Source of the DNA: a virus
IMG/VR virus record: IMGVR_UViG_3300034101_001551
Span: 1-20,390 of that record
Strand: one strand, 5' to 3'
DNA length: 20,390 bases
In this document: positions 1-20,319 of the stretch, in pieces
Numbering within the stretch: position 1 is the first letter of the stretch
How the letters are laid out: each line of letters starts with the position of its first letter
The notes under the pieces: generated by a model
What the model was told of the DNA's origin: nothing
The model's input: only the letters and a program-made list of their open reading frames with translations
Database searches by the model: none
Translations under genes and position numbers: made by a program

Positions 1-576
1 CTTGTATCCCTCATCCCATTCGGCTTTGCCGGCGATTGGGTGCATGTGCTCAACGATAACGTGATCAAGATAAGTCAGCGCTCCTAAATCCTGGCCTAGT
101 TTCTTCCAGAAGTTATCAAGGTATAAATGCTTCATCTTTGGCGGAACCATGCCATCAAGGGCTTTGACGATGTCGCTTGTCATCGCGATCATGGTTGGAA
201 GTCGTTCCCCTTGCAGCAAGTCGTTGCCGTAGGCCATTGACGGCCGCTTCTGCATCGCCTGGATAAGAATGTCATCCCACCCGGCTGTGCGTGGGCGGTG
301 GTCGTCGCCTAAGAAGGCGAAGTATTTATATTCGCCCTTCTTTGCGATCGCACTGGCTGCCTTGTTGATTGGGTAAGCCATCCCCCGGGTTTCGTTCTGA
401 ATTGTCATGCACTTGTGAGCGCCCACTTCGTATTCGTAGGCATCGTGCTCTGGGTCATTGGCGTCAATTACGAAGAGAATGTCTGAATGCGTGGAAAGTC
501 GATCATGCTCTGCCAATAGTTCGACTGCGTTGCGTGGGCGTCCTCTGGTTGGTACGAGGATAATCATTTCGTTCAT
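1..576 (-). CDS. Glycosyltransferase-like phage protein, 3' end cut by window edge
   Basis: I translated this frame by hand: 192 codons stay open from an ATG at 576 to the window edge, so the C-terminus is missing. The protein starts with a short beta strand and 'PTRGRP' (residues 9-14), typical of the nucleotide-sugar site of GT-A enzymes. It has FLGDDH at 88-93 as the likely metal/sugar-nucleotide acidic motif, and later YGNDLLQG, DNFWKKLG and VIVEHMHP (173-180), where the His/Glu could be catalytic or metal-binding. This pattern matches a family annotated as glycosyltransferase in many actinobacteriophages. Substrate is unknown: phage DNA, virion protein or host wall are all possible. The ATG overlaps the upstream gene's stop as ATGA, so translation is probably coupled. 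The general GT-A call is fairly safe; the acceptor is not known. Confidence 0.75.
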   Translation of the reverse strand, partial: MNEMIILVPTRGRPRNAVELLAEHDRLSTHSDILFVIDANDPEHDAYEYEVGAHKCMTIQNETRGMAYPINKAASAIAKKGEYKYFAFLGDDHRPRTAGWDDILIQAMQKRPSMAYGNDLLQGERLPTMIAMTSDIVKALDGMVPPKMKHLYLDNFWKKLGQDLGALTYLDHVIVEHMHPIAGKAEWDEGYK

Positions 577-839: not shown

Positions 840-1034
840 CTACTTTGCTCCGCGTCCGAATTCGGTTGCTCTTGGATCGATGGCCTTTAATAGTGGGCCT
901 GCAACTGCTGCGATTCCTGCTGCAAGATATTCCTTGAGTGGGCGGTTCGGATCTGCCATATAAAGTGCTGCGACTGCCGCTGCTCCTGCTCGCAGGTAGG
1001 TCATTGCAATTGCTTCAAGTTGTTTCTTATCCAT
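840..1034 (-). CDS. Small hydrophobic protein, putative holin
   Basis: A 64-residue protein. I place the start at the ATG at 1034, not further upstream, because AAGGAG sits at a normal distance before it. The N-terminus is short and charged, followed by two Ala-rich hydrophobic segments (about residues 11-27 and 35-52) and a polar tail ending FGRGAK. Two short hydrophobic helices, small size and position directly after the endolysin (8-base overlap) fit a class II-like holin. Similar proteins ending in an '(E/A)FGRG' tail recur next to phage lysins. The helices are unusually Ala-rich and weakly hydrophobic, so a peripheral or structural role is possible. A second holin candidate lies on the other side of the lysin at 1520-1807. 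Confidence 0.55.
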   Translation of the reverse strand: MDKKQLEAIAMTYLRAGAAAVAALYMADPNRPLKEYLAAGIAAVAGPLLKAIDPRATEFGRGAK

Positions 1035-1536
1035 TTGTGATCTCCTTAAACTTTGGACGTCCAAATCCTACGATAAAGACTGGAAGTGATGGCTTTACTT
1101 TGCCGCGATTCTTCTTCTTGTATGCGCGTACCTTTTGGCAAACTTCGCCGCCGTTGCGCTGGTCGCCCTTCTTGTCGGGCGCTGTGTTGCCTTCAATTGT
1201 GGTGACTGTTCCATCGCCGTTATTTGTAATCACGATTCCAACGTGTGAAATGCGATCGAGCGCGTCTCCGGGGAAATCAAAGAAGACGATATCTCCTGGC
1301 TTTGGATCCGCTTGTTCTGCAAGTGTCCACGCCTTCTTGTCCATGAAGCCTGTTGCTCCTGCTGGCGTGTACGTGCAGTTTGGGATCTTAACTTCTGCCT
1401 GCTTTGCCACCCAGTTCACGAACGCTCCGCACCATGCTTGCTTTGGCTTCTGATATTTCGTTTCGTTATCTGCTGGCCCTTCAATGTAGCCGAGTTCTGC
1501 TTTGGCTACTTCAAGAAACTTATTTAATTGGCTCAC
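1027..1536 (-). CDS. CHAP-domain endolysin (peptidoglycan hydrolase)
   Basis: A 169-residue protein that is essentially one CHAP domain, which cleaves peptidoglycan as an amidase or endopeptidase at the end of infection. The catalytic Cys is C36 in 'QAWCGAFVNW', the His is H98 in 'RISHVGIV', and E115 or N117 in 'TIEGNT' completes the site. 'PGDIVFF' before the His is typical of the family. I see no separate wall-binding domain, only a short basic C-terminal tail, and no signal peptide, so a holin or pinholin should release it. The start is GTG, preceded by AAGGGGAAG. It overlaps the upstream membrane-protein gene by 17 bases and the downstream holin-like gene by 8, making a compact lysis cassette. 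A tail-associated hydrolase is less likely given the neighbours. Confidence 0.87.
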   Translation of the reverse strand: MSQLNKFLEVAKAELGYIEGPADNETKYQKPKQAWCGAFVNWVAKQAEVKIPNCTYTPAGATGFMDKKAWTLAEQADPKPGDIVFFDFPGDALDRISHVGIVITNNGDGTVTTIEGNTAPDKKGDQRNGGEVCQKVRAYKKKNRGKVKPSLPVFIVGFGRPKFKEITNG

Positions 1537-5257: not shown

Positions 5258-6514
5258 TTAGTAACTGAGAACGCCTGCGACGCCCAGAATTCCTTGCGAT
5301 GTGCTGTCGAGAATAAACGCCTGGATAATGGGTTCGCTCGTCAGTATCTTAGTGGTGAATGTTGTCCTTGTTATGTCGTGTTGCAGTCCTTGTACGAATA
5401 ATTCGCTGGTGATTGATGTTGATCCCGGCATCGCCTTTGTAACGTTGACTAGGTCGAATATCTCCAAATTAACGCCGGCGATGTTGCGTGCTTCCTGGCC
5501 GTCGTCGACAAGGTTGAGCGTCATTGAATCAATGCGAAGCGTTGCGTTCTTGCGTGATTGCAAGATCATCGTTGCTTGGTCTAGTGATTCTGTGTCTGTC
5601 TGCACCAGAATGCCGGTTCTGGCTCCTGAATGGATGAAGTAGTTATCGATCGATGTCTGATCGCTTACGATCTGGTTTGTTCCGTTTAATCTTTGAACCG
5701 AGACGTTATTGACGATCAAGGTGTCATCAAAAGCCAGATCGATCTGGGCGTATCCGATTCCTGTGCCATCGTCGCTGAAAACTGTAGGGGTTGAGTCTGC
5801 GTACTGACTCACTGTGGTTCTGGAGTAGAAGGTTGCGTTTCCTTCTGCGTCCAAGAAGAAGCCACCGAATTCGCTATTTTCCACCGTTTGAATTGCTTCT
5901 AGAACGGTGCGATCTGGTGTTCCCGGATCTGCCTGCATGGTGCTATCGCCGGCGTTGATATCTCTTTGCGATGTGGGCCAGTCAACAACGTCTAGAAGTT
6001 TGTTGATGCGCGTTCCGCTTAGTTGCCCTGCTCCGGTATCTGGCACTGTGCTAATCGCTGCGTTATTGAGAAGGCGGAAGCCGTCGACGCATTGCAGGAT
6101 CACCCTAGAAACTTCATCGGCTCCAAGTGCAAAGGTGGTGTCGTAGCTGGTGATAAATCCTGAGAAAAGGTAATAGCGAACGCCTTCGTAATCTGCCCAG
6201 ATTCGGATCTTGCGCAAGGGTACGAGTTTGCCGTAGTAGGGGCCTGCGGTATTGGCCGGGTTCCAGTCGCCGGTTTCGTCTTTGATCTCAACGACGGCCG
6301 TTCCCGCTTCGAACTTGTTCAGAATGCGGTTGCGGCCTCTTCGAATTGATGAGCGCAGAATAATGTCTGAAATGTCGACCGAGTCGTCTGCGTCTGCAAG
6401 CTGCCCTGTTCCTAATACGCCCTTGATCGCGTCATCCAAAGTGAAGGCTGTCGAAATAAACGCCGGGCCGTTCACGAAGTCGATTGATGCTCCGAGCTGT
6501 GGAATGCCTGCCAT
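5258..6514 (-). CDS. Minor tail protein (distal tail/baseplate hub type)
   Basis: A 418-residue protein following directly on the tape measure gene; its ATG overlaps the tape measure stop (TGATG). An N-terminal region with 'RSSIRRGRNRILNKFEAG' and 'VVEIKDETGDWNPAN', then 'GVRYYLFSGFITSYD', matches the minor tail proteins that actinophages carry after the tape measure. The middle has 'VILQCVDGFRLLNN', a block I associate with hub proteins of the gp27/D type. The C-terminal part is beta-rich. I see no hydrolase motif. It probably forms the ring at the tail tip on which fibres assemble. The exact equivalence to Dit or Tal proteins cannot be decided by eye. Confidence 0.78.
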   Translation of the reverse strand: MAGIPQLGASIDFVNGPAFISTAFTLDDAIKGVLGTGQLADADDSVDISDIILRSSIRRGRNRILNKFEAGTAVVEIKDETGDWNPANTAGPYYGKLVPLRKIRIWADYEGVRYYLFSGFITSYDTTFALGADEVSRVILQCVDGFRLLNNAAISTVPDTGAGQLSGTRINKLLDVVDWPTSQRDINAGDSTMQADPGTPDRTVLEAIQTVENSEFGGFFLDAEGNATFYSRTTVSQYADSTPTVFSDDGTGIGYAQIDLAFDDTLIVNNVSVQRLNGTNQIVSDQTSIDNYFIHSGARTGILVQTDTESLDQATMILQSRKNATLRIDSMTLNLVDDGQEARNIAGVNLEIFDLVNVTKAMPGSTSITSELFVQGLQHDITRTTFTTKILTSEPIIQAFILDSTSQGILGVAGVLSY

Positions 6515-8841
6515 CAGAGTTGGATCGCTGTCTTCGTGATCGCCTGGCCGTTATTCTGCCCCTGAAGGATGGCGTTGCGGATCGCATTGACGAGGTCGCC
6601 TTCGCTGGTAACGCTGCCATTTACAACGATGTTGACGGTTGATCCGCCCATCGATCCCATCCGGTTGAGTGGAATTACGGCCTCTGGCCCTGCTTCGCCG
6701 ATCAAGGCTGCTGTGGGGCTGTTAACGATGCCGCCGTCTGCCAACATCGGCATCCGGTTGAGTTTGTTGATCAAGCCCTGGGTGGTGAAGTTGCTGGTTG
6801 ATGGTGCTGGCGTCGTTACCTTTGGAGCAACAGGCCCGATAAATCCTGAATCTCCTGGCTTGATTGGGCTTACTGGGAATACAACTTCTGGCTTGAAGCC
6901 AGGCGGTAGTGGCGTTCCTGCTACTGGCGCTGGCGTTACTGGTGCTTCAATCTTTGCGCCTGAAGCTGCAACGTATTTATTGAGCGCGTCAAGCGCGTCC
7001 TTCCATGATTTTGCCGCCGCATCTCCGGGTGCTGGCCAAAGCGCAGAAGGTGTTACTCCATCTGCGATCTTCTTTGAATAATCTGCTACTTCTTTGTTTG
7101 TCAGATTCCATTTAGTTGCAAGTTTATTGATCTCATCATCTGAAAGTTTGCCGTCGTTGAGCGCGGCAAAGAATTCTAGATACATCTGCGCCTGTGCTGT
7201 GGTTACGTTCCACTGGGTTGCAAGTGCGCCGACTTCTCTTGTGGAAATCTTTCCGTCGTTGACTGCGAAGATTGCGCTGGTGTAAGCAATGACGGCGTCT
7301 TTGCTGATTCCCCACTTCTGGGATAAGACGATTACTTCTTCTGGTGAAATCTTGGAATCTGCAACAACGCCGAGCAGGTCGGTGTATCGCTTGATCGCGT
7401 CGTTTGCCTTGAGTTGCGCTTCAAGATTTGCGAGGATCGCCTTGACTCGTTCTGCTTCTTGAAGGTTTGCTTGCTTTACAAGGTTGAGTCGTGCCGCTTC
7501 AAGTTGGATCGGATCTGTCTCGGTAGTTGGTTTGATGTTGAATTTCTTCAACGCCGCGAGCGCCTTTTGCGTCTGGATAAGTTTCAAGTCTGCTGCTGTG
7601 AGCGCCTTTGTGTTCTTTCCTGCTTTTCCAAGATCAATGTTGAGGCCTTTGAGTTGATCAAGAAATCCGTCGGTTGCTCCATCTAATCCATCAAAGGAGA
7701 AGGCTAAATCGTCGCCGGTGGTTTCTAGTTTGCTCATCTCGCTGTTGGCCTTCTTGGTTACAAGATAAAGACCGCCGAGTGTGGCTGTGAATGCGGCAAC
7801 GCCTGCGACAGCTGCTGCGACTGAAATTCCGCCGGTGGCTGCTGCCTGCGCCGCCGCTGCTCCAAGTGCTGCGGCTCTGATTGCTTGGTAAGCCTTGACC
7901 AGTGCCTGTATCGCTGTAACGAATGCGATCACTTTGGATGCTACAAAGGTTGCGGCAAATATCGCGCCGAGTGTTACGAAGATTTCTTTATGTTTTGCTA
8001 CAAATGAAAAGATTTTAAATAGTGCAAATCCGAAGGCGAGAATGGCTTTGAGGCTTTTAGTTAAAGCAGTAACAAGTTTATCTCCGTTCTCATTAACGAA
8101 TGCTTGAACGGCTGGAATAACTTTCGTCAGTAAAATTTGAGCAAAGTTTTCTAAGACTGGAATAAATGCATAACCTAATTGATCTAAGACTTGATTAAAA
8201 GCCAACTGAAGGCTGATCATTCTAAATTCAAAGGTTTGAGCACGTTTATCTGCTTGCCCTGCAAATGTTTCGCCAAGTGAGACAAGGATTGCATTGAGGT
8301 CTTTGGACTTTACTGCTGCTGCATCAAGTGGCACGCCGAGTCTGGTAAGTGCGCCAACATTTCCGCCTAGCGCTTTTGCGAGTGCCAATGAAACTGATTG
8401 CAAATCTTTTGAGGTTCCGGCAGAAATATCAAGAGCGAGGTTTTGTAGTATCTGTGCTTGCGTGACATTTTTTGTTGCTTGAACCAGGGTTTGAAGAGAT
8501 GGGATCAATTCTTCATTGTCTACGCCTACTGATAATTCTTTAGCATCTAGGTATTTGACTGTGGCGGCAATTGCTTCGTTTGTTGCTCCTGTTGTATTGC
8601 GTAGCGCAGTTGCTAGAGCGATTTGTTGTTTCTGATCTGCCATCGCACCTTTGACGGCGTCTGTGCCGATCTTGACTGCGAATGCGGCGCTGGCTGCCGC
8701 TGCGATGCCGAAGGATTTGGCTACCTTGCCTGCGAATTTATCAAAAGATTTTCCGAGTTTGTTGATATCGCGGCTTGCTGCCTTGCTGCCCTTGTCTGAG
8801 TATTGGGTAATAATCCGGGCGGTTACTGCGCCTATTGCCAT
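6514..8841 (-). CDS. Tape measure protein
   Basis: At 775 residues this is the longest gene here, placed after the tail chaperone pair as usual. Its length sets tail length, and it is ejected with DNA. The N-terminal 250 residues are Ala/Lys/Leu-rich helix. Two hydrophobic zones (about 261-315 and 335-362) could insert into the host membrane during DNA entry. Residues 495-596 hold three 34-residue repeats (separate entry). A Pro-rich linker (about 633-685) leads to the classic C-terminus 'LADGGIVNSPTAALIGEAGPEAVIPL' (two adjoining pieces from about 700), seen in many tape measure proteins. No lysozyme or peptidase motif noticed. By the usual rough 1.5 angstrom per residue rule it implies a tail of about 115 nm, an estimate only. 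Confidence 0.93.
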   Translation of the reverse strand: MAIGAVTARIITQYSDKGSKAASRDINKLGKSFDKFAGKVAKSFGIAAAASAAFAVKIGTDAVKGAMADQKQQIALATALRNTTGATNEAIAATVKYLDAKELSVGVDNEELIPSLQTLVQATKNVTQAQILQNLALDISAGTSKDLQSVSLALAKALGGNVGALTRLGVPLDAAAVKSKDLNAILVSLGETFAGQADKRAQTFEFRMISLQLAFNQVLDQLGYAFIPVLENFAQILLTKVIPAVQAFVNENGDKLVTALTKSLKAILAFGFALFKIFSFVAKHKEIFVTLGAIFAATFVASKVIAFVTAIQALVKAYQAIRAAALGAAAAQAAATGGISVAAAVAGVAAFTATLGGLYLVTKKANSEMSKLETTGDDLAFSFDGLDGATDGFLDQLKGLNIDLGKAGKNTKALTAADLKLIQTQKALAALKKFNIKPTTETDPIQLEAARLNLVKQANLQEAERVKAILANLEAQLKANDAIKRYTDLLGVVADSKISPEEVIVLSQKWGISKDAVIAYTSAIFAVNDGKISTREVGALATQWNVTTAQAQMYLEFFAALNDGKLSDDEINKLATKWNLTNKEVADYSKKIADGVTPSALWPAPGDAAAKSWKDALDALNKYVAASGAKIEAPVTPAPVAGTPLPPGFKPEVVFPVSPIKPGDSGFIGPVAPKVTTPAPSTSNFTTQGLINKLNRMPMLADGGIVNSPTAALIGEAGPEAVIPLNRMGSMGGSTVNIVVNGSVTSEGDLVNAIRNAILQGQNNGQAITKTAIQL
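7054..7359 (-). repeat. Three tandem 34-residue repeats inside the tape measure protein
   Basis: Residues 495-528, 529-562 and 563-596 align without gaps: each begins D(S/G)K(I/L)S..E, continues with a Leu/Ala helix, then 'W(G/N)(I/V/L)(S/T)', and ends in an aromatic-rich helix before the next N-D-G-K. The period is exactly 34 residues (102 bases). The D-G-K-I-S-x-x-E core matches positions 5, 6, 8 and 12 of an EF-hand loop but lacks acids at positions 1 and 3, so calcium binding is doubtful. The DNA copies have diverged, so the duplication is old. Confidence 0.8.
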
Positions 8842-8847
8842 GCTCGG

Positions 8848-9399
8848 TTATCCCTTCTCTTTATTGAAATTGGCTTGCAGGGTCTTCTGTGCGTCGTCCA
8901 TCGCTGATCTAATATTGGCGTAAATTCTGGGGCGATCGCGGTCAATGACGGCCCATATTCCACGACTGGCTTTGCGGAAGCGGTCATTCAAGTTGCCGAT
9001 CATCATGCGCCCGGTTCCTTGCCCTGGCGTCCTGCGTCCTGCAACTTCAAAGATAACGCCCGAGGCGGTCTTGTTAAATAGTGCGCCGGCGCTGGTGGTG
9101 TAATCGGCTCTCACGCGACCTTCTGTACGAGTTTTAACGATTCCCTGGCGAATGGCTTGCGGATCCCACGCTGGCCAGCCTTCGCCGCCTCTGGTGGTCT
9201 TTCGTGGGTTCTTTGCGGCCGTCGTTCTCCATCCACTCATAGGTGGCTTGGTTGGTATCTGGTCTTTGGCATCGTTTTCGGCTCGGCGCAGCTCGTCGTT
9301 GATTACTTTGTTCAGCCGACGAGCTGCGTCCTTGTCGAATTTCTTCAAGGCGGCGGTGGTTTCTTTGATGCCGCTAATTACAACGACTTCATTGGCCAT
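8848..9399 (-). CDS. HK97 gp10-like basic tail/neck protein
   Basis: A 183-residue basic protein. The N-terminus 'ISGIKETTAALKKFDKDAARRLNKVINDELRRAENDAKDQIP' (read in pieces; residues about 9-50) has the amphipathic helix seen in HK97 gp10-like proteins, which help join or complete tails. The middle is rich in Arg, Lys and Gly ('KNPRKTTRGGEGWPAW', 'GRRTPGQGTGRMMIG'), and the end is helical. Such proteins normally sit between connector and tail terminator; here it lies between the tail chaperone and the tape measure. Its start overlaps by 11 bases the end of the -1 frameshift product of the chaperone gene. Family call moderately sure, exact role inferred. Confidence 0.65.
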   Translation of the reverse strand: MANEVVVISGIKETTAALKKFDKDAARRLNKVINDELRRAENDAKDQIPTKPPMSGWRTTAAKNPRKTTRGGEGWPAWDPQAIRQGIVKTRTEGRVRADYTTSAGALFNKTASGVIFEVAGRRTPGQGTGRMMIGNLNDRFRKASRGIWAVIDRDRPRIYANIRSAMDDAQKTLQANFNKEKG

Positions 9400-9804
9400 G
9401 TTTGTTTGCCGCCTTTGCCTTCTCTTTGAGATAGATCACGATCGCTTCAAGGATGCCGTCTGGTGCATCCAATAAAGCAATCGGATCTATTCCTGTCTCC
9501 ACAGAAACTGCTGCGATTGAATATGTCAGGCTATCTCTGTGGATTCTGAATTTGGGTCTGTGTCTAGTTGCACTCCTTCAAGCGTATCTAAGAACTCCGG
9601 GCCGAACGGTTTCACAATTACTCCGTTGGATTTAAGTGCAAGCCATCCGAGATAATAGATATGTTCGAGCTTCTGTTCTTCGCCGATGAGTTTGGCTAGG
9701 CCTTTGCCGTACTTCTGTTCAAAGTCGACGATGATGCGTGGTCGCAATGAGAACGTTTTTTCCACGCCATCAGTCGTCTTGACTTTGATATTTAATCCAT
9801 CCAT
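9389..9804 (-). CDS. Tail assembly chaperone, -1 frameshift product (GT type)
   Basis: Reading 0 frame from 9804 to the slip site at 9550-9556, then -1, gives a 138-residue protein that ends at a TGA at 9389-9391. The extension beyond the slip reads 'FRIHRDSLTYSIAAVSVETG', then 'IDPIALLDAPDGILEAIVIY' and a Lys/Ala tail. This 'R...LTYS.A..SVETG..P..LLD.PDGILEA' pattern is the known C-terminal half of actinophage tail chaperones. Such GT fusions are made at low frequency and recruit tail-tube subunits to the tape measure protein; they are absent from the virion. The -1 frame has no start of its own, so frameshifting is the only sensible route. The join is between codons 85 and 86. Confidence 0.87.
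9526..9804 (-). CDS. Tail assembly chaperone, short product (G type)
   Basis: A 92-residue protein made when no frameshift occurs. Residues 20-75 ('LRPRIIVDFEQKYGKGLAKL', 'EEQKLEHIYYLGWLALKS', 'FGPEFLDTLEGVQ') are typical of the N-terminal domain of siphovirus tail chaperones, which coat the tape measure protein in the right ratio to the longer GT form. It ends soon after the slip site in an acidic tail (SESTEIA). The ATG at 9804 is preceded by a strong AGGGGGAAAA ribosome site, shared in form with two other genes here. It lies right after the two tail-tube genes and before the tape measure, the standard place. Confidence 0.9.
   Translation of the reverse strand: MDGLNIKVKTTDGVEKTFSLRPRIIVDFEQKYGKGLAKLIGEEQKLEHIYYLGWLALKSNGVIVKPFGPEFLDTLEGVQLDTDPNSESTEIA
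9550..9556 (-). promoter_or_regulatory. Programmed -1 ribosomal frameshift slip site C CCA AAT
   Basis: In the coding (minus) strand the heptamer is CCCAAAT, in the zero frame C CCA AAT, fitting X XXY YYZ. Slipping back one base gives CCC AAA, then opens a 53-codon frame with family-like sequence. The site is 8 codons before the zero-frame stop. I did not find an obvious strong stem-loop directly after it. Confidence 0.87.
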
Positions 9805-9822: not shown

Positions 9823-10230
9823 TTAGGTTGTTGTCTTCGTAATTGCGCCGGAGATCGGCCAAGTTACAGATGCTGTTGCTAACTCACCGACGGATCCATT
9901 TAGCGGAGTCCATTCTGAAACAAGAGCAGAGAACGCGTATTGCGGATTCACTGCTGTTGTTGTTCCGGCGACTGGCTTTGCTACTACGCTTACTGCTGTT
10001 CCGAGCAACGGATAGATTGTTTGCTCGACTGCTGATGTTGCGTAGTCCTGATGAAATTCAAACGTCACAGAATTGTCTGCAAGCCCAGCAACACGTGTCT
10101 TTGCTGTGTTTCCGAATGCAGTGGTTTCTACGATGTCATATGTTGAATTGAGCGTGATGCTCGAAATATATGTACTCAGATCGGTGCTTCCAAATACAAC
10201 GGATGCGTTTGTTAATACAATTCTTGCCAT
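9823..10230 (-). CDS. Tail tube (major tail) protein, copy 2
   Basis: A 135-residue beta-rich protein. I take the ATG at 10230 (MARIVLTNAS...), which overlaps the stop of copy 1 as TAATG and aligns exactly with its start; the longer frame would run into copy 1. By hand alignment about 95 of 136 positions match copy 1 with one gap, strongest at 'KTRVAGLADNS', 'VEQTIYPLLG' and the C-terminal 'NGSVGELATASVTWP.SGAITK'. Tail-tube subunits stack as hexameric rings around the tape measure protein. Two copies may build mixed tubes or different zones of the tail, or one may be the terminal ring. It is followed 18 bases later by the chaperone gene. Confidence 0.83.
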   Translation of the reverse strand: MARIVLTNASVVFGSTDLSTYISSITLNSTYDIVETTAFGNTAKTRVAGLADNSVTFEFHQDYATSAVEQTIYPLLGTAVSVVAKPVAGTTTAVNPQYAFSALVSEWTPLNGSVGELATASVTWPISGAITKTTT

Positions 10231-10640
10231 TATGCGACCGCCTTCGTGATTGCTCCGGATACTGGCCAAGTTACAGATGCTGTGGCCAATTCACCGACGG
10301 ATCCGTTGATCGGAGTCCATTCTGAAATTATAGCACTGCATGAATATGACGGATTGAATGCGCTGGTGGTTGAGCCATTTGGCTTGACGATCACTGTTGA
10401 TGCTTGTCCGAGAAGTGGATAGATTGTCTGCTCCACTTCGCCGGTTGCGAAGTCTTGGTGAAATTCAAGCGTGATTGAGTTGTCTGCCAAACCAGCAACG
10501 CGTGTCTTTACTGCTGTTGACGCGAATGCGGTGGTTTCGACGACGTCGAATGTCGAATTGAGTGTTACTGACGCGACCAAATCGCTCAGATCCACTCCGC
10601 CGACGGAGATAAATGCGTTAGTGAGAACTATGCGAGCCAT
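10230..10640 (-). CDS. Tail tube (major tail) protein, copy 1
   Basis: A 136-residue protein beginning 'MARIVLTNAFISVGGVDLSD' and rich in Thr, Val and Ser, the look of the short tail-tube proteins of siphoviruses. 'TLEFHQDFATG.VEQTIYPLL' and 'SEWTPINGSVGEL' are typical of the fold's beta-hairpin regions. It lies after tail terminator and unknown genes and before the chaperone, where the tube protein is expected. Its ATG overlaps the upstream stop (TAATG). It is about 70% identical by eye to the next gene, so it stems from a tandem duplication. Which copy dominates in virions cannot be told; both have complete frames. Confidence 0.85.
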   Translation of the reverse strand: MARIVLTNAFISVGGVDLSDLVASVTLNSTFDVVETTAFASTAVKTRVAGLADNSITLEFHQDFATGEVEQTIYPLLGQASTVIVKPNGSTTSAFNPSYSCSAIISEWTPINGSVGELATASVTWPVSGAITKAVA

Positions 10641-11854: not shown

Positions 11855-11966
11855 GCTTCGTCCTTCTTTCCGGTTTCGGCAGCATTGCGCGTTCTAGTTT
11901 GGGATCGGCGGTTGCTGTTTCCTTTGCCGGCTTGCGCCGGGTCTTCTTAATCTTTCCAAATATCAT
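11841..11966 (-). CDS. Small basic protein, probable
   Basis: A 41-residue protein (MIFGKIKKTRRKPAKETA..., ending PERRTKRGPN). I set the start at 11966 because a GGAAG lies about nine bases upstream inside the end of the glycosyltransferase gene; longer in-frame starts lack this. It is very Lys/Arg-rich and probably unfolded alone, so it may bind nucleic acid or the inside of the neck. It bridges the glycosyltransferase (20-base overlap) and connector genes (14-base overlap), leaving no gap, the main reason to believe it. No family recognised. Confidence 0.5.
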   Translation of the reverse strand: MIFGKIKKTRRKPAKETATADPKLERAMLPKPERRTKRGPN

Positions 11967-12630
11967 GATGAATTTCTTCCATCCAGAAGCTCTTCTGGTG
12001 CGGCAATATGGCAGCGGTGTTGACGTGGATCGTAAATCCGAGCGCCTTTGCCCTTCGACAGAATAATAAATCTTCGCCGATCCAATCTCCATTTACTGGC
12101 CCATCCCAGAACCAGCACCAGTCTGTTCCCTGATTCGGATCTGCGATTTCGCGCATCTTCTCTAGAACGCTTCGGTGAACGAGCATGCACCCGGTTCCTG
12201 CCGCGTCAATTTCGAAGACCGCGTTCTTGTCGTATTTGTAAAGTGGAAGGAAGCCCTTATCTGAGTCCTGAAATATGCAGGGGACTGGCTTTGGGTAAGC
12301 CTTGCCGGGAACTCCAAATCCTGCAAAGACAAGGCCTGCGACGATCGGGCGCTCTTTGTCATGGGCTGTGTCGATTAAGGCGTCAAATGCTGAAACGCTG
12401 AGCTGCTCGTCTGAGTCCAACATAAGAAGCCAGTCGCTGTCGGTGTTATCCAGAAATTGTTTGACCACTCGGTTGCGTTGCTTTGATAAAAGTCCCGAAC
12501 CCTTGATTCTTACAAATGGCCCGAGTCTGCTGCTTCTTGCTTGCGCAAGTTGGATTAGCATGTATGCGAATGATCCATTTACGGATCCGGGATCGCACGA
12601 ACCGATTGTTACTTTGTGTCCTGTCTTCAT
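11947..12630 (-). CDS. GT-A glycosyltransferase-like protein in the head module
   Basis: A 227-residue protein. 'VTIGSCDPGSVNGSFAYML' starts the nucleotide-sugar fold. 'SDWLLMLDSDEQLS' has the DxD motif at residues 72-74 for metal and sugar-nucleotide binding. 'FEIDAAGTGCMLVHRSVLEK' is the acceptor-side strand common in family 2 enzymes. 'GEDLLFCRRAKALGF' (185 on) has the catalytic acid pair, and H211 in 'ILPHQK' could complete the metal site. It may glycosylate capsid or other virion proteins, since it sits between capsid and connector genes, or act on the host surface. It has its own strong AGGGGGAAA ribosome site and follows the capsid hairpin, so its expression is likely set apart from the capsid. 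Acceptor unknown. Confidence 0.82.
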   Translation of the reverse strand: MKTGHKVTIGSCDPGSVNGSFAYMLIQLAQARSSRLGPFVRIKGSGLLSKQRNRVVKQFLDNTDSDWLLMLDSDEQLSVSAFDALIDTAHDKERPIVAGLVFAGFGVPGKAYPKPVPCIFQDSDKGFLPLYKYDKNAVFEIDAAGTGCMLVHRSVLEKMREIADPNQGTDWCWFWDGPVNGDWIGEDLLFCRRAKALGFTIHVNTAAILPHQKSFWMEEIHHDIWKD

Positions 12631-18571: not shown

Positions 18572-19001
18572 GTGCTCGCGTCATCAATTCCTGGATGCGT
18601 GTCTGTGCCTGGACTTCTGCGAGTCCAAGTCGCGAACGCTCGACCGGGTTGAATGCGATGAGTGAAAGCATTGCAGTTATCTGGTGATCAAGGTGGCGCA
18701 ATGCAACGCGGTCACGCCATTCTCCGCCTCTGAAAACTATCGCTCGAAGTTGAACGCGTTCATCCATCGTTTCGCAGAGAATCATTACGTGTTCGATGTC
18801 TGTCGTTGGAGAAATCCATGCGCGTCCTGCTTGCCAGATGCGTTCCCACATCTTCTGGCCTTCTGATCCAAGTGGGCGAAGTGGTTCTGGTGTTTCTTTC
18901 GCCATTGGTAATGCGATCAGGTTTGCTTTATCTGGAAGCGGTCGCTTTCCTGGGTTGCCAAGTTTGCGCTTCTGCTCGATTGTCTTTGGGGGATTAGGCA
19001 T
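18564..19001 (-). CDS. terS: Terminase small subunit, P27 family-like
   Basis: A 145-residue protein. It begins with 'EQKRKLGNPGKRPLPDKANL', the conserved 'GNPGKRPL' signature of P27-type small terminases. It continues as helices with 'LRPLGSEGQKMWERIWQAGR' and 'TDIEHVMILCETMDERVQLR'. It binds the genome start site and hands DNA to the large subunit. AGGAAG precedes the ATG. The gene overlaps its upstream methyltransferase gene and the downstream large subunit by 8 bases each, so all three are likely translated together. Confidence 0.9.
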   Translation of the reverse strand: MPNPPKTIEQKRKLGNPGKRPLPDKANLIALPMAKETPEPLRPLGSEGQKMWERIWQAGRAWISPTTDIEHVMILCETMDERVQLRAIVFRGGEWRDRVALRHLDHQITAMLSLIAFNPVERSRLGLAEVQAQTRIQELMTRARG

Positions 19002-20319
19002 TGTCGCTTCCTATGAAATCGTAAGGCTTGCCGGTGAGTTCGTTGATTGGAAGGATTCCAGTCAGTTCTTGCCAGCGCTTGCATATAACGTCTGCGTATA
19101 TCGGATCCAATTCAACAAGTGCTGCCGTCATTCCGAGCGTGTGAGCTGCGACCAGAGTTGATCCTGATCCGCCAAATGGATCCAGAACAACCGAGTCACG
19201 ATTCGCCGAGTTACTCAATATTCGAGTGATGAGGTTGATGGGCTTCATGGTCGGGTGTTCTGAATTTCTGCGTGGACGTGGCTCGCGGATAATGGTCGAA
19301 GATTCTCTTGCTGTTTCGATTATCTTTACGAGTTCTGTCTTGCTCAATGTGTCCAAGTCCTTCGTTGCGAAGTCGAGAACGGTTGAGTCATTGAATGGGC
19401 CAAACCAGGGATGCGCTGCTCCTGGTTTCCATCCGTAGATGATTGGTTCGTGTTGCCAGTTGTAATCCTGGCGGCTGAGTGTGAAGTTGTCTTTGACCCA
19501 GATAAGAATTTGCTTGAGCATAAATCCAGAAGTCTTGAATGCTGATCTGAATGTGACGCTGCTTCCATCTGCGTGGCAGACATAAATCGGGCAACCGTCT
19601 TTTGCGTTTGCGTACATCGCTCCGTAAGTTGCAAGGAGAAACGATTCGAATTCTAAGTCGCTCATCGAGTCGTTCTGAATTGTTAGGTTCTCATTTGTTC
19701 CGCCGGTGTATGCGACGTTGTATGGCGGATCTGTGAAGATGCAATCTGCAAGTTTGCCGCCGAGTGCCTTGCTTAGAATTTCTGGGTTTGTTGAGTCGCC
19801 AACAACAAGGCGGTGCGGCCCGAGGATCCATGTATCGCCTTCGATGCTGTGCGCTGTTCTTGACTTCGCTGGTGCTGCATCTAAGTCGCCAGCCATTGGA
19901 ATCTCTTCAACCGGCATCTTGAGAATTTCGGCAATCGCTTCTTGGCTGTAGCCGGCGTCGCTTACTAATTCTGGGTCAACGTTTACAAGCTGCGCGATCA
20001 TCGCTCGAAGTGCGTCTTCATCGTAAGTTCCAAGCTCGGCGGTTCTGTTATCGGCGAGCGCGAATGCGTGGGCTGTGTTGTCATCGTCGTCTGTCCAAAC
20101 GACGGCGATCTCGCTCCAGCCGAGTTGCTTCGCTGCTTGCCAAGTGTGGTTGCCGGCGATGATGGTTCCGTCGCTGTGCTTGGCAACGATCGGCTTGCGT
20201 TGACCGAAGCGCTCAAGCGACCGGGCTACGGCCGCGATGTCGCCCCTGCGTGGATTGCCTGGCAGTGTGTGCAAGTCGTCGATTGGCGTGGCCAAACTCT
20301 TCAAGCTTTCGTTGATCAT
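18994..20319 (-). CDS. ParB-like domain fused to DNA N6/N4 methyltransferase
   Basis: A 441-residue protein. Residues about 10-110 form a ParB/sulfiredoxin-like domain ('NPRRGDIAAVARSLERFGQR', 'GTIIAGNHTWQAAKQLGW'). The methyltransferase follows: 'ADCIFTDPPYNVAYTG' with DPPY at 197-200, then 'EHPTMKP' (354-360), then the AdoMet site 'VVLDPFGGSGSTLVAA' with FGGSG at 382-386 and 'ALVELDPIYADVI'. DPPY before FGGSG is the beta-class order, which methylates adenine N6 or cytosine N4. No restriction enzyme lies nearby, so it is an orphan enzyme that may guard phage DNA before packaging or mark the packaging site. Target sequence unknown. The fusion type is common in phages. Confidence 0.92.
   Translation of the reverse strand: MINESLKSLATPIDDLHTLPGNPRRGDIAAVARSLERFGQRKPIVAKHSDGTIIAGNHTWQAAKQLGWSEIAVVWTDDDDNTAHAFALADNRTAELGTYDEDALRAMIAQLVNVDPELVSDAGYSQEAIAEILKMPVEEIPMAGDLDAAPAKSRTAHSIEGDTWILGPHRLVVGDSTNPEILSKALGGKLADCIFTDPPYNVAYTGGTNENLTIQNDSMSDLEFESFLLATYGAMYANAKDGCPIYVCHADGSSVTFRSAFKTSGFMLKQILIWVKDNFTLSRQDYNWQHEPIIYGWKPGAAHPWFGPFNDSTVLDFATKDLDTLSKTELVKIIETARESSTIIREPRPRRNSEHPTMKPINLITRILSNSANRDSVVLDPFGGSGSTLVAAHTLGMTAALVELDPIYADVICKRWQELTGILPINELTGKPYDFIGSDNA

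Follow-up and report, generated by a model that had tools for sequence, protein, structure and literature searches.

Whether tandem repeats inside a tape measure protein act as a ruler or as something that folds is the question raised by a gene on the minus strand of a 20,390-base virus record (the window, meaning the whole stretch of DNA that was analyzed). No part of the siphophage tail is less well resolved than its tape measure protein, and repeats within such proteins are usually read as ruler marks. A preliminary description of this gene had noted three 34-residue repeats with an EF-hand-like core and proposed that they could be a length-tuning unit, or a calcium- or fold-switching module used during ejection.

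The minus strand of the window carries a head-tail gene cluster. It runs from terminase through a portal-like gene, capsid, and connectors to two tail-tube-like genes in tandem, followed by a small gene that probably undergoes frameshifting, a gene resembling tail-completion genes (weak match to phrog_5), and an open reading frame (ORF) of 775 residues (6514 to 8841, minus strand). The 775-residue protein weakly matches the tape measure family phrog_2335 (E value of 7e-4), and its C terminus matches tape measure proteins annotated in Streptococcus phages and in Pontimonas phage phiPsal1. As in siphophage tape measures, the protein is long and mainly helical (the helical models being those of the array region), and its gene lies between the major tail and chaperone genes and the distal tail genes. 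On homology and gene order, this protein can be identified with confidence as a siphophage-type tape measure protein, as the preliminary description had it. Two further parts of the protein stand out: a hydrophobic region at residues 263 to 362 (7756 to 8055, minus strand), a candidate membrane-inserting part judging from its Kyte-Doolittle peaks, and a C-terminal part at residues 697 to 775 (GGIVNSPTAALIGEAGPEAVIPL..., 6517 to 6753, minus strand), which has more than 90% identity in close relatives and by analogy may be the tip anchor.

The nearest named phage by terminase is phiPsal1 (48.7% identity), and most other matches are to phages of actinobacteria, so the host of the window phage is likely actinobacterial. 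The phiPsal1 tape measure has only its C terminus in common with the window protein (53% identity over residues 697 to 756) and contains no repeat unit.

A small gene with a slippery heptamer and an open −1 frame is the classical layout of tail assembly chaperones. The 92-residue ORF upstream of the tape measure gene (9526 to 9804, minus strand) is, by its position, length, and downstream frameshift, a probable G-like chaperone, and it has no NCBIfam family match. A CCCAAAT heptamer (9550 to 9556, minus strand; in frame C CCA AAT) probably joins it by −1 programmed frameshifting to an extension of 54 codons that ends at a stop (9389 to 9553, minus strand). The same arrangement can be read upstream of the tape measure gene in 167 of 174 related loci, with CCCAAAT as the heptamer in 134 and another heptamer of the X XXY YYZ form in 33.

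Several other genes in the window deserve mention. The tandem tail-tube-like genes (9823 to 10269 and 10230 to 10640, minus strand) are 75% identical over 272 nucleotides and are probably a duplicated major tail protein. An ORF at 18994 to 20319 (minus strand) matches a ParB domain (residues 22 to 135) and a CcrM-type adenine methyltransferase (residues 184 to 419). The ORFs at 11947 to 12630 and 1 to 576 (minus strand) look like glycosyltransferases by eye (e.g., WLLMLDSDEQ), and one of the two sits within the structural gene cluster; this reading of the 11947-to-12630 ORF found no support in NCBIfam. An endolysin-like ORF (1027 to 1536, minus strand) matches TIGR02594 and a cell wall endopeptidase family, both below the cutoff.

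The array itself consists of three gapless 34-residue units at residues 481 to 582, phased on predicted helices: unit 1 (residues 481 to 514, DAIKRYTDLLGVVADSKISPEEVIVLSQKWGISK; 7300 to 7401), unit 2 (residues 515 to 548, DAVIAYTSAIFAVNDGKISTREVGALATQWNVTT; 7198 to 7299), and unit 3 (residues 549 to 582, AQAQMYLEFFAALNDGKLSDDEINKLATKWNLTN; 7096 to 7197), all on the minus strand and defined by self-comparison, relatives, and spacing, with helices in the model. Residues 583 to 596 (7054 to 7095, minus strand) correspond to the opening helix of a fourth unit that is left incomplete, at the place where four-unit relatives have a full unit 4. In the upstream flank (residues 440 to 480, TETDPIQLEAARLNLVKQ...; 7402 to 7524, minus strand), the drop in identity between array types starts at about residue 450 to 480.

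Periodicity in the three units is far beyond chance. The ungapped BLOSUM62 self-score at an offset of 34 is 138, compared to a maximum of 60 in 1,000 shuffles over all offsets from 10 to 119, and the three-way repeat score is 180, compared to a maximum of 74 in 5,000 shuffles; pairwise identities among the three window units are 13, 14, and 8 of 34 residues. The motifs DSKIS, DGKIS, and DGKLS begin at residues 495, 529, and 563, exactly as first described, with residues 495 to 596 corresponding to positions 7359 to 7054 (minus strand). Repeat similarity begins upstream of that frame, with helix-phased unit 1 starting at residue 481 rather than 495. Because unit similarity also stays above background in a profile alignment and the periodicity is kept in relatives, the repeat survives the refutation test proposed in the preliminary description.

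AlphaFold modeling of the 121-residue array with 97 alignment rows gave helix-turn-helix units at moderate confidence (mean pLDDT of 79.5, pTM of 0.72). A first model of 241 residues that included the flanks (pLDDT of 63.7) was too weak for fold searching except to find homologs. In each 34-residue unit, a first helix (about 15 residues) would lead through a tight D-G-K-I/L-S/T-x-x-E turn into a second helix (about 10 residues) that ends in an invariant Trp and is followed by another tight turn, G/N-h-T/S-x-x. In the first turn, the first helix is stopped by Gly (or a residue in its place), which is followed by a hydrophobic residue and a capping box. Among 85 nonredundant units, the capping box (S/T/D-x-x-E/D) is present in 82 and the hydrophobic staple in 84; the second turn (W-G/N-h-T/S) carries capping signals of the same type, and helix boundaries in both AlphaFold models coincide with these signals. 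Conservation in the same 85 units is 100% for Y6 and W30, 98% for D15 and L26, and 95% for E22. The models thus predict a tandem set of alpha-hairpins for the array, which lies in the distal half of this siphophage tape measure.

Searching with the 121-residue model found no convincing solved analog (best E value of 0.23), the matches at E values of 0.2 to 1.2 being EF-hand photoproteins, designed toroids, and tandem homeodomains. Tetratricopeptide repeats (TPRs) and designed alpha/alpha toroids are likewise two-helix repeats of 34 residues or similar length, and the designed toroids rank near the top of the fold search, at an insignificant E value of 0.4. Homology to TPRs was rejected, as the hhalign comparison with consensus TPR gave a P value of 0.76 and a score under the mean of shuffled TPRs. 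TerB-like domains (PDB 2h5n) are also helical and have a D-G-x-I/V-x-x-x-E turn motif, but the spacing from this motif to the next turn appears to differ from that of the repeat unit; the profile match to them is weak and not significant (E value of 0.05), and TerB_C matches below threshold in 4 of 43 members. PDB sequence matches such as mitochondrial ribosomal mL64 were set aside as chance level.

Relatives of the array come from metagenomic contigs. A whole-protein scan recovered 33 relatives covering the array, nearly all with DG/DS motifs in the same places, and the array is somewhat better conserved than the rest of the protein (84% versus 73% identity). Among the first 100 loci, all 99 ORFs that carry units have three of them, some of these loci being duplicates of a single contig. 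An unbiased DNA pattern for the core (D-G-K-h-S/T-x-x-E-h-x-x-L-x-x-x-W) matched at least 118 loci, and among the matches listed, the unit profile finds units in 114 of 118, in one ORF per locus: 55 with one unit, 25 with three, 33 with four, and one in which two were detected. That locus (L134), like L190, has three units on reading, with a degenerate middle unit. The remaining 4 of the 118 pattern loci have two short unrelated ORFs of 174 residues (L108 and L215) and 94 residues (L110 and L125), which carry a D-G-K-I-T...W motif and do not match the unit profile.

After further scans, the family comprised at least 223 distinct ORFs of uncultured phages in the tape measure position, with 53 having one unit, 76 having three, and the remainder essentially four. 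These class frequencies, among the matches listed, are not estimates of abundance. Neighboring units are spaced by 34 residues in 419 of 445 cases among the matches listed and by 35 in 14 more, and no two-unit array is among the matches listed. One locus (L118) probably carries five units, the fifth being degenerate and seen by eye only; other arrays with five hits were rejected, as reading showed four units together with either a partial hairpin or a weak match upstream.

Outside this set, the array has no significant match in named phages and no convincing match in Pfam, PHROGs, or solved structures, and no relative was confirmed by tblastn when bacterial genome contigs were scanned for units. 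The earlier remark that no such module had been described in tape measures therefore holds for Pfam, PHROGs, the PDB, and the literature searched. A protein of an uncultured member of the Caudovirales in BFVD (A0A6J5SLR2), labeled just "uncharacterized protein," matches the 241-residue model in structure with 36% identity (E value of 2e-10) and is probably an unannotated family member. Among the weak structure matches in the same database is a 658-residue protein, also from an uncultured member of the Caudovirales, named "EF-hand domain-containing protein" (A0A6J5M7Z8), possibly a family member mislabeled through its loop motif.

Copy number changed at least 8 times on a tree of 91 nonredundant N-terminal regions. 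Orthology among units follows position. The third unit of three-unit arrays has 57% identity to the third unit of four-unit arrays and 43% to the fourth; the fourth is most similar to the third (47%), and the single unit of one-unit arrays most resembles unit 1. Because units differ from each other and are orthologous by position across classes, recent slippage is not supported as the source of copy number in the window, whose own array has no sign of recent duplication. Pairs of close relatives suggest instead that the array is exchanged between phages as a block by recombination. For example, nucleotide identity between L034 and L146 is 0.72 to 0.96 up to codon 450, 0.38 to 0.69 over codons 450 to 690 (the array and the stretch after it), and 0.86 to 0.92 at the C terminus. 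Two other near pairs with different unit counts (L092/L174 and L091/L256) have the same upstream edge, with identity mostly 0.72 to 0.96 up to about codon 450 and 0.38 to 0.69 in the array and shortly after it. The case for exchange comes from these three contig pairs, with both edges visible in L034/L146 alone; as identity does not return at the C terminus in the other two, a swap of the entire C-terminal half fits them as well, and fast divergence of the array could mimic exchange. As an ordered cassette of 1, 3, 4, or 5 units, the array seems to change copy number largely through exchange by recombination rather than by recent slippage in place.

What such a cassette might do can be approached from tail architecture. 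The tape measure trimer forms a rod of about 20 Å in the tail channel with its C terminus at the tip, and it is proposed to be expelled C terminus first and to refold in the envelope at infection (PMC11445458; PMC10721106). That channel is unlikely to hold three compact three-unit stacks next to one another, yet the units are evidently under selection to fold, so folding should matter outside the tube: most probably once the tape has been ejected, and with less probability while the chaperone assists assembly. Within the virion, the array would be threaded through the tail channel as a largely extended chain, flanked by the hydrophobic part and the tip anchor. Given a helical rise of 0.15 nm per residue, if that value is valid here, it would lie about 30 to 45 nm above the tip. 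As the tape is expelled, the array would fold up at or within the host envelope as a compact stack of helices, serving as a deployable spacer or docking domain, with unit number setting the size of the folded array and adding 34 residues per unit to the tape. An exchanged alpha-hairpin cassette that folds after ejection as a spacer or docking domain is the best explanation overall, held tentatively and at a little less than an even chance; it comes close to the "fold-switching module used during ejection" of the preliminary description. The array could instead fold before assembly or bind the chaperone.

The closest competitor is that the array is a length-tuning unit, phages changing unit number mainly to shift tail length by 34 residues (about 5 nm) at a time. 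Copy number does differ among homologous tape measures (1, 3, 4, and probably 5), and tape measures with more units are longer, with medians of 609, 784, and 930 residues for 1, 3, and 4 units. Repeat deletion in the TP901-1 tape measure shortens the tail proportionally, but there tail length follows total residues deleted, repeat or not, and the 11-residue repeat can be replaced by alanines (PMC5099701). Subtracting the units from the median lengths here still leaves 575, 682, and 794 residues, so the units add to tape length without explaining it: they supply only 68 of about 175 residues of the difference between 1 and 3 units and 34 of about 146 between 3 and 4. Moreover, the window's own clade keeps three units throughout, and the strong folding signals in the units would be needless in a passive ruler. 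Of the length-tuning proposal, variable copy number stands; tuning as the main role of the units appears rather unlikely.

Known tape measure repeats, those of TP901-1, p2, and staphylococcal and clostridial phages, have periods of 11, 18, and 40 residues (PMC5099701, PMC3271669). The present array resembles them in being tandem, in having regularly placed aromatics, and in differing in copy number between phages. It differs in its period of 34, its two helices and two capped turns, its D-G-K-I/L-S/T-x-x-E core, its 1 to 5 copies only, its place in the distal half of the protein, and a copy number that seems to change by replacement of the whole array rather than by unit-by-unit duplication. 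Its invariant aromatics, at unit positions 6 and 30, are spaced by 24 and 10 residues, and no Trp/Phe spacing of 11 or 18 residues was found.

For other tape measures, regularly spaced Trp/Phe residues have been suggested to anchor chaperones (PMC3271669; PMC5099701), and in the present units the invariant Trp and Tyr might likewise anchor the frameshifted chaperone as it coats the tape before the tube polymerizes. The probable chaperone gene upstream, in the window as in nearly all relatives, fits this role for the units as docking marks. However, most one-unit relatives would have a single mark, the chaperone arrangement is not specific to multiunit tape measures, and a helical core would need the Trp and Tyr as well, which makes chaperone docking improbable.

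Still less credible are tandem DNA-binding helix-turn-helix units that hold or guide the packaged DNA end. Below-threshold matches to homeodomains and Xre-type helix-turn-helix domains and a local fold similarity to homeodomains (about 42 residues, root mean square deviation of 1.7 to 1.9 Å) speak for them; all these matches are insignificant, sequence comparison to homeodomains is at background (homology to them was rejected on this ground), many helical proteins share the turn motif, and the unit loops are acid rich (D15 and E22 conserved), leaving this reading highly doubtful.

Resemblance of the core to the second half of an EF-hand loop was borne out. Like EF-hands (Pfam EF-hand_1, _5, and _7; calmodulin), the unit is a helix-loop-helix with the Asp-to-Glu loop spacing of D-G-x-I-x-x-x-E and a hydrophobic residue at loop position 8, and EF-hand loop positions 5 and 12 are conserved. 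Calmodulin aligns in phase over three units (hhalign probability of 5.7%, P value of 0.0067), and the score of the trimmed alignment is reached by only 1 of 200 shuffled calmodulins. EF-hand_5 is among the weak Pfam matches in 15 of 43 members (best EF-hand E value of 6e-4), and EFCAB6 is the best PDB sequence match of the profile (E value of 1.6e-4 for the whole chain, 0.69 for the best single stretch). In the window protein, no Pfam match reaches its cutoff (EF-hand_5, 13.6 bits against 25.9; EF-hand_7, 12.8 against 30), and the two EF-hand photoproteins among the fold matches are insignificant, at E values above 0.2. When the loop is aligned to that of an EF-hand, ligands X, Y, Z, and −Z fall at unit positions 11, 13, 15, and 22. 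D/N/S occupies position 1 (X) in only 12 of 85 units and X, Y, and Z together in 0 of 85; position 3 (Y) is hydrophobic in every one of the 85. The models have helix-turn-helix units without the EF-type beta bridge that links loops; compared to calmodulin, the linker is about two residues shorter, and arrays with odd copy numbers occur. Calcium-binding EF-hands that change shape with calcium during ejection are therefore largely refuted by their missing ligands and are the least probable reading. Most of the EF-hand look is accounted for by signals that stop and cap helices: a Gly stop, a hydrophobic staple, and an S/T-x-x-E capping box. What resemblance is left is weak and marginal. Descent from an EF-hand, shortened and calcium dead, is possible, and convergence of capped helical hairpins is slightly favored.

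In its fullest form, the preferred reading of a cassette that folds after ejection would describe a class of tape measure modules so far undescribed: alpha-hairpin arrays exchanged by recombination among uncultured, probably actinobacterial, phages, threaded unfolded and folding into a host-envelope domain on ejection, with unit number matched to the envelope and not to tail length. Taken with all its parts, that claim is unlikely. The array also cautions against automatic "EF-hand" labels, A0A6J5M7Z8 already being so named. A family whose members carry 1, 3, 4, or 5 fold-encoding units at near-perfect spacing, with close pairs that differ in the array and hardly at all upstream of it, offers natural constructs for separating ruler length from a folded function.
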